Shown piece by piece: positions 12,301 to 15,300 of a DNA stretch of 64,000 nt. The notes beneath the pieces are model-generated. The model worked only from the letters and a program-made list of their open reading frames with translations. It had not been told where the DNA came from and did not search any database. The position numbers and the translations under genes are program-made. Source of the DNA: Centroberyx gerrardi (lineage: Eukaryota; Chordata; Actinopteri; Beryciformes; Berycidae); the NCBI RefSeq assembly GCF_048128805.1, contig NC_136003.1, forward strand, positions 26,286,885 through 26,350,884. Direction: 5' to 3'. Position 1 is the first letter of the stretch. The number at the start of each line of letters is the position of its first letter.

Positions 12301-15300
12301 GTCAAACATTTCCATGCACCCTCTGTCTGGTGTCTGATCCCTGTATTGTCGTTCCCTGGCTGTCCCGTGACTCTGTCGGTGCAGACGGTACGGACCGCGA
12401 GGACTCGTACCCCGACCAGTCCTGTCCGATGGGGAACCACCACCGGGGCACGACGGCAGGTTCCCATTGGGAGGACCTGTGCAGCAGCGCCAGTATCTGC
12501 TCCCAGTCTAGCGATGAGGAGATGAAGCCCATGGGACACAGCAAGGGGGAGCTCTATCCCCCCGGGGGCGACACCAGAGACTACCCCCCCGCAGTGGTCA
12601 GCCTGCTGCCGCCCAGCGGACCCTCGGCGGGCATGGGACCTCCTGTAGACCGTGGAGGGCCTCCCTACTCGGGTAAAGACTCCATCCACCAGTCCCACAT
12701 TCGGTACCATCATTACAAACACATGTTTCATAGCCAAGCTTTGTTCAAACCCACAGAAATGTATTTTAAATTCTAGTCAAGATCCCAAGGTTTCCAAAGA
12801 TACCAAATATGTCAGGCTGAATTACAGTGAAATGTGTAGAAAATGATGCACAAACATTTCGATTTTTTCCATTTGATGTAATGCTGCAGCCATAAAAAAC
12901 ACGGCGCCTTGGGTTTAAATATTTCACTCAATAAAAGCAGCTGTATCTTCAGTGAAGCGTTGGAACGAGCAGATACAGAATATGTGACATTGTCGTACAG
13001 CATGGGAAAATGTTTTTTTCTAACTTTGAAGCTACTTAAGAGGAAATTCACGGGGAAACTCAGGGTGCCTGGGGTTAAAGCATCAATGCTTTCATCAGTC
13101 ACATCTGTATTGTCTTTATTATTGGGGTCAGAAAACATTCTCAGACATGTCAAAGCTATTACTGCTGCTAAGTGTCTTGTTTTCCGTTCATAGAAACATC
13201 AAACATCAATCTCTCCCCATCTTTCTCCAGATGGATTAAAGACATCATGTAGTTTTTGAAACTAGAGAAACTTTGACGCACTTCCAGAGGCTCTAAACAC
13301 CTTTTTTACAAAAATCCGAACCCCTTTCTTGGAGAGGAGAGGCAGACCCCCCCCCACCCCCACCCCCTTTTCCTTTTTCACTAATATAAAATAAAAAATA
13401 TATGTGGAATGTTTCTAGTTTTTATCTTTATCTTTCTTATCTATTTGCAGGGTAAAAAAGAGAATACATTTTTGGCGGAGAATGTTGAAATGGTCCCTAA
13501 AATCTATTAACTAAATCAATTAAAAAAAATAATTTTGTATTAGATTTGTATTGTATACGTTTGTATTACACTGTATTACATTATCTGTTGCAAACATATA
13601 CAAAATACCTTCTGGACTTCTATCAATAATCCTTTGAAAAATATCTCCCCTCCCAAAAAAACTCAAACGAAAACTGAAACTAAATGAAAACTAAACTGAA
13701 ACAAAACAGTTGTTAAAATAAATAAATAAATAAACTAAACTAAAACTACCAAACCCAGACTGAAAACTAACTAAAACTAAACTGAAATTGAGATAAAAAT
13801 TAAAAACTATATAAAAATAAAAACTATTGAAAAATCCCAAACTATAATAACCCTGTTTAGTACACAGTGGACTGTCTCTTGCTAAAGCCCAATGCTACCT
13901 TGTCTCTCTCTTCGCATGACTTCCTTGAATAACTGAAAATGAAAGTGTTACAGAAGTCAATGGGGTCCGGGTCTCTTTCTCTTGTTCCAGCAGCAGCTCC
14001 CATCAGCATGTCCGGACTGTACGGCTTCTGGCCGGACCGCAGAGCCAGCCAGTTCTCAGACAGCCAGAGGCGCTCCTCCTCGGTCCGGGCCACCTACCAC
14101 CCCCCGCCCTGCACAGAGGACCGGCCCAGCGAGCTGGAGTCCAGGCTGGAGCTGCTGCAGTCCCAGCTCAACCGGTCAGAGCCGGCCCCAGGCATAAACA
14201 GTTTATGCGCTCGTTTAGGGCCACACACGTCTGTGCTCCATCATGGGGCCTCATAATTCAAGGATTTGAATCCTCTGAGTGTATAGATCTACTGTTGCAG
14301 TGAAATCATACAGGAAAGCGAGTTCTCCAGTTATCAATATAATAATGAACAGGGATAGAAAGTAGGCTATAATATTGTTGCTGAATGATACTTATGAAAC
14401 TGAATTACATTTAGGTTACCCAGGTTTGCGCTCTATACACACACATCCGTGCACACAGGCTTACAATTAACTAGCTAACCTTGCATGATATTTTTTTTTT
14501 CTCTTGATAGATTACACTGTACTGCACAAGACAGTTGTCAACAATTGTATCCCTCTGAGTAAGCTTGGAATAGTTTTCAGACTATAACAAGTTTTTAAAT
14601 GCCTAATAAAAGTTTATTCCTGGGTTGCATTACTGAGATCACCTGGTTAGACCCTTTCACACCACCTGTTCTACCTTTTACCCAGCTCATTGCTTTGGTA
14701 TGTAACGGGCTGTACAGTTTCATTCCATATGTGATGACTGCTGTAATGTTTAGTGTTATAGGGCCACAAATTTCTTGTTCAGGGCCACCAAAACCCTGGG
14801 GCCGGCCCTGCAACCGGTCAGTCACTTCTGTGTTTGAGCGCTGATGGTTCTAAATCTACGGAAGAGGATTAGGGCCACATGTGGAAAATGTATTTGAGTT
14901 CTGAGATTAATGTCAGAAGTCTGAGAAAAGAACTAGTTAGAACTCAGACTTCACTCTAAGAACTCTGTGATTATTTTCTGAACTCAAATACATTTTTCAC
15001 ATGTGGCCCTGATCCTCTTCTGCATTAATCAGTATATATGACCAGGAGAGCTATTACCACTGTTGACAGAAAAGAGGGGGCACCCGGATTTGAACCGGGG
15101 ACCTCTTGATCTGCAGTCAAATGCTCTACCACTGAGCTATACCCCCTGTTAATGTGACTGTCACTGTTATCGGTGTTCTGCCTAATGGCCAATGTTAGCC
15201 TGCAGGTTAGAGCTACGTAGTCACTAGGCAAAAACTCCTCCCTCCCCCTCCTGCTCTATTTGTATTTCAGTTCCTGGAAGGAGGTTGTAAGGTGTGTGTG

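Follow-up and report, generated by a model that had tools for sequence, protein, structure and literature searches.

A putative non-autonomous hAT-type transposon lies over an exon-intron boundary of a kcnh6-like gene in the window, the whole 64-kb stretch of DNA that was analyzed, and its insertion has duplicated the splice donor. Direct reading agreed with the preliminary description in that the eight bases repeated at its flanks (8/8 identical) are the last six bases of a coding exon plus the donor GT, and in that the left donor, GTCAGA, and the right donor, GTCAGT, have identical first five intron bases. Coordinates are collected in Table 1. We consider it likely, at a probability of about 0.8, that the left donor carries normal splicing, that the insertion is tolerated and near-neutral, and that the right donor is an intronic decoy.

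Table 1. Features of the insertion and of the surrounding gene, by position in the window.
Feature	Position	Strand	Basis
kcnh6-like coding exon, split Arg codon at end, phase 2	13991-14174	+	C20 paralogue (L030), human KCNH2
Left target-site duplication CAACCGGT (exon -6 to -1 plus donor GT, 14175-14176)	14169-14176	+	Direct reading
Rebuilt 5' splice site on the left, GTCAGA, with +3 to +6 from the transposon end	14175-14180	+	Direct reading
Element, non-autonomous, putatively hAT type, 634 bp	14177-14810	.	End-to-end C23 copy, itself flanked by a duplication
Left terminal inverted repeat CAGAGCCGGCCCCAGG	14177-14192	+	Direct sequence comparison
TAA, 26 residues past Arg when the left donor is not used	14254-14256	+	Frame reading
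AATAAA hexamer within the element, gene sense	14605-14610	+	Sequence scan; putative signal
Acceptor-like pyrimidine tract plus AG within the element; exon start would be 14686	14664-14685	+	Simple tract filter
Right terminal inverted repeat, reverse complement CAGGGCCGGCCCCAGG	14795-14810	-	Direct sequence comparison
Right target-site duplication CAACCGGT	14811-14818	+	Direct reading
Right donor GTCAGT, native intron sequence	14817-14822	+	Direct reading
Next coding exon	15743-15959	+	Paralogue comparison, frame reading
Last coding exon, stop TAG at 16368-16370	16083-16370	+	Frame reading

The termini of the element, read directly as CAGAGCCGGCCCCAGG...CCTGGGGCCGGCCCTG, are inverted over 16 bp with one mismatch. 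The direct repeat around the element is 11 bp in full (CAACCGGTCAG, 11/11 identical) rather than 8 bp because the native intron and the element both go on with CAG, and without outside evidence the element ends could be slid within it. The ends were set independently because an end-to-end copy elsewhere in the genome has its own 8-bp duplication. Removal of the element and joining of the flanks gives CAGCTCAACCGGTCAGTCAC as the empty site. A chance repeat was also considered and was rejected, as independent copies define the element ends.

A genome search with a 650-bp query returned at least 59 matches, a lower bound with 40 of the 87 first-look candidates scored. Among the matches listed, C23:19563598-19564273 was the only other copy aligned over the full element (query positions 9 to 642). 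The C23 copy is flanked by AAAATCAC and CAAATCAC (7/8 identical), is 88% identical to the window element in the search table, and differs from it by 36 mismatches over 632 aligned sites. Three shorter neighbors on C23 (L003-L005) have the same flanks as the full copy and therefore descend from one insertion. On C2, a 73-bp pair of similar ends was found between CCCACAAT and CCCACGAT, also 7/8 identical. Evidence to the contrary came from 13 single right ends, none of which had a matching left duplication in the surrounding 1.5 kb, and from six extended regions with element ends, which gave no matching duplication either. Eight of the 13 ends, in element-matching fragments L009-L016, have one right flank in common, GTACCTAAGTAA(T/C)A, and are therefore probably parts of a larger repeat. 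A copy of the element ends seems to have become part of this other, more abundant repeat.

Inverted ends starting with CAG are the end motif of hAT transposons, and the ends found here are short and start in this way. An 8-bp target-site duplication is given for hAT transposons in the accessible part of PMC4818426, and duplications of that length were found in the window, at the C23 copy, and at the C2 pair. The preliminary proposal of a hAT-type insertion was borne out by the inverted ends, the perfect duplication, and the C23 copy; the class assignment of the element, based on duplication length and CAG-type ends, is a probable one. Matches to the hAT dimerization domain are common in the genome (150 of 987 first-look candidates scored), and of 24 papers matched by a literature search with the element end motif, the 15 listed appeared unrelated, judged by title.

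The interrupted exon ends ...CAG CTC AAC CG and is joined to ACTGGAG at 15743. In the closest paralogue, on C20, the exon ends ...CAGCTCAACAG, with CAACAG followed by intron sequence GTGCAT, and the next exon likewise starts with ACTGGAG. The intron thus has the same position and phase 2 in the paralogue, and it predates the element. Four other paralogous places (on C13, C22, C21, and C10; E values of 2.1e-5 to 0.006, with three further rows above an E value of 1 left out) match only from about the junction residue onward, and all four have, by eye, an AG at the same acceptor position. Human KCNH2 (hERG) aligned across the junction, with QLNR before it and LETR after it, within the ERG-family C-terminal coiled coil (E = 2.7e-13), and the junction therefore splits that coiled coil, as had been proposed. 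The 5' end of the exon was assigned from the AG at 13989-13990, and more AGs lie 3 and 6 bases further. This tandem acceptor, CAGCAGCAG at 13988-13996, could yield protein forms that differ by one or two residues. We conclude that the C20 paralogue and the hERG alignment back the exon end at 14174 and that the insertion therefore duplicated a splice donor.

Frames downstream of the host gene resemble dcaf7 and ccdc47, recognized by eye, which we take to be neighbors of human KCNH6. This neighborhood, read by eye rather than from a tree, suggests that the host gene is kcnh6 (ERG2)-like. When three upstream exons were compared with NCBIfam, one gave two generic potassium-channel matches below the cut-offs, and the other two gave no match. 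The element-bearing intron is, as read here, the next to last of the coding region. The same intron holds a 66-nt inverted repeat (14861-15020; 85% complementary, with a 28-nt spacer), perhaps a second small inverted-repeat element. Four tRNA-Cys(GCA) genes lie in or just past the kcnh6-like gene (9542-9615, 10178-10249, and 18865-18938 on the plus strand and 15074-15146 on the minus strand), one of which shares the intron with the transposon; ARAGORN and Rfam indicated no other tRNA in the 64-kb window.

We propose that the transposon inserted over the boundary by a staggered cut that would have duplicated the eight host bases, and that the initial CAG of the element would have supplied donor positions +3 to +5. 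Because CAG is also what the native intron has at those positions, the exon-side donor would have been rebuilt at once, half from the host duplication and half from the transposon end. Splicing from 14174 to 15743 would then remove the whole element within an intron just 642 bp longer, such that the insertion would be near-neutral and kept. Left-donor splicing leaves an intact frame that starts at the split Arg and runs for 168 codons until the TAG at 16368, in keeping with the earlier claim that this donor keeps the normal protein. The original donor would stay behind as an intronic decoy that may yield a little aberrant mRNA, mostly with early stops and probably degraded. For a tolerated insertion speak the perfect duplication, the inverted ends, the conserved intron position and phase, and the intact left-donor frame; against it speak the lower score of the left donor, its coverage by the inverted ends, and the chance that loss of this gene copy is tolerable.

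Splicing from the right donor adds 642 bases, which encode 26 new residues past the Arg before a stop at 14254. For right-donor use or retention, the preliminary description had given 27 residues and a stop near 14256; the stop is where it was placed, and the count is 27 only if the shared Arg is included. For the same reason, 167 residues rather than 168 would be lost, as the 168-residue tail includes that Arg. Acceptor-like tracts within the element, found by a simple tract filter, precede 14511 and 14686 and, together with the right donor, would define exons of 306 and 131 nt, each with an internal stop. An AG before 14783, rejected by this filter, would define a 34-nt exon without an internal stop but with a shifted frame; from the Arg, translation of its product would run for 227 codons until it met a stop. 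Among these four modeled products that include element sequence, three thus terminate within the added part and one is frameshifted; as modeled, the element offers no clearly useful coding option. The joined empty site, read into the intron, reaches a stop 8 residues past the Arg, and therefore a retained intron would already have cut the protein short in the absence of the element. Degradation by nonsense-mediated decay is the expected fate of mRNAs with early stops. Decay of the right-donor mRNA is likelier than a stable truncated channel because hundreds of bases separate its stop from the next junction downstream.

Both donors are weak relative to the consensus. With an approximate frequency table, scores were 4.79 bits for the left donor, 6.28 for the right donor, 5.93 for the C20 donor, and 12.55 for the consensus, and U1 pairing gave -4.1, -4.7, -6.8, and -11.6 kcal/mol, respectively. 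The left donor scores below the right because its +6 position is A. Low-level mis-splicing via the right donor is plausible, since that donor matches U1 slightly better, and one could go further and suppose that the two donors compete, with a measurable share of transcripts using the right donor, either alone or with an acceptor in the element, and with stop-bearing mRNAs lowering channel output, possibly by tissue. The acceptor-like tracts and their stop-bearing exons would fit such a poison-exon arrangement. The difference in score on which it draws is small, however, and comes from the approximate table. Moreover, exon definition disfavors long exons, and the exon measures 184 nt by the left donor but about 826 nt (184 + 642) by the right.

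RNA folding bears on the same question. When 14060-14950 was folded thermodynamically, the inverted ends formed a nearly complete stem (pairing probability 0.98 to 1 for 14 of the 16 positions, against 0 for the mismatch and 0.16 for the last) that ties up left-donor positions +3 to +5; the left donor is covered from -3 to +5, and in the right donor -3 to +2 are paired. A stem that can cover part of the left donor would favor competition, but when only the RNA as far as 14500 is folded, as in a nascent transcript that still lacks the right end, left-donor positions +3 to +6 are unpaired. Because the donor of the joined empty site is paired too, at seven of nine positions, the fold offers a lead only and no conclusion on donor choice. 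On balance, we regard appreciable competition between the donors as unlikely.

Failure of the left donor combined with polyadenylation at the AATAAA hexamer would give a stable mRNA that ends in the element and a channel in which 26 new residues replace the second half of the coiled coil, like the human isoform Kv11.1a-USO. The hexamer is in gene sense and beyond the stop, the frame being open to 14254, and polyadenylation in KCNH2 intron 9 is reported, in the part of PMC7829756 available, to yield a truncated nonfunctional isoform. That precedent concerns another intron of another gene, a lone hexamer is weak evidence, and we hold such an isoform to be very improbable here. We give still less credence to the idea that the insertion broke this gene copy and that it is turning into a pseudogene while the C20 paralogue covers for it. 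The weak donors would agree with breakage, and in B6 mice the Kcnh6 exons on either side of an IAP insertion show very little normal splicing, as given in the portion of PMC3088655 consulted. Loss of Kcnh6 splicing has, on that account, been tolerated in one mammal, and with a C20 paralogue present, loss of this gene copy might be tolerable as well. Against breakage, one coding exon before the insertion and two after it are open, and the interrupted exon still borders on a donor whose first five intron bases are those of the native one. The open downstream exons should be weighed together with the age of the insertion. One or more outgroup copies could be compared at 591 sites, where 9 changes were private to the window element, 11 were private to the C23 copy, and 8 were ambiguous; these private changes bound the age loosely, and the insertion may be fairly young. 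With so few private changes, the fact that the downstream exons are intact lends little support to normal use.

With normal splicing from the rebuilt left donor, the channel gene itself has most likely changed little. The insertion is a clean example of a cut-and-paste element that hits a splice signal and rebuilds it, the donor being restored in the same act because the host duplication and the first bases of the element combine. Wherever a duplication ends at the GT, the end of such an element would write +3 to +5 as CAG and rebuild the exon-side donor; if this is general, donors would be softer targets than expected for elements with 8-bp duplications. If 216,000 donors are assumed (24,000 genes with 9 introns each), roughly 0.00028 of random insertions would have a duplication ending just past a donor GT, so several such events would be expected given tens of thousands of hAT copies, itself an assumed number. 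It is a doubtful further step, to which we assign a low probability, that CAG-starting, 8-bp-duplicating elements are pre-adapted to donors and leave a second donor as a switch, here as transposon-born poison-exon control of a channel gene.

Parallels exist among known systems. The maize cut-and-paste elements Ds and dSpm are spliced out of pre-mRNA near their ends; they differ from the present case in that they interrupt exons and are spliced at sites within their own ends. Like Tol2 of medaka, a hAT transposon, the element has short inverted ends and an 8-bp target duplication (PMC4818426, accessible part), but unlike Tol2 it is 634 bp long and without transposase. MITEs, hAT elements included, are associated with alternative splice sites in mulberry (PMC6593561), a plant survey with RNA data, the available part of which does not describe a donor duplicated by target-site duplication. 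The mouse Kcnh6 IAP is likewise an intronic mobile element, in the gene of the same name, and there the splicing disturbance was measured; unlike the element here, it is an endogenous retrovirus and polymorphic among strains, and splice-site duplication is not described in the part of PMC3088655 seen. The [D1,2] stwintrons resemble the present arrangement in having a second intron-like unit at the 5' donor (PMC12403724, in part), but the element here is without a demonstrated internal intron having its own acceptor at its end. In the literature searched, mostly non-subscription, no previous description of a splice donor duplicated by a hAT element was recognized. Similar in mechanism are introners, introns of transposon origin whose splice sites come from target-site duplications (PMC9860276) and which in Amoebophrya have inverted repeats plus direct repeats overlapping exon boundaries (PMC7789003). 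As far as the available parts of these two papers go, the element shares with introners the inverted ends, the direct repeats at an exon boundary, and a donor from the target duplication, and most introner families leave mRNA length unchanged. The element is not an introner, however similar the mechanism, because the host intron pre-exists and its own acceptor is used, such that no new intron is made. We conclude that the mechanism is already known in kind from introners and that the case is mostly an ordinary tolerated insertion.
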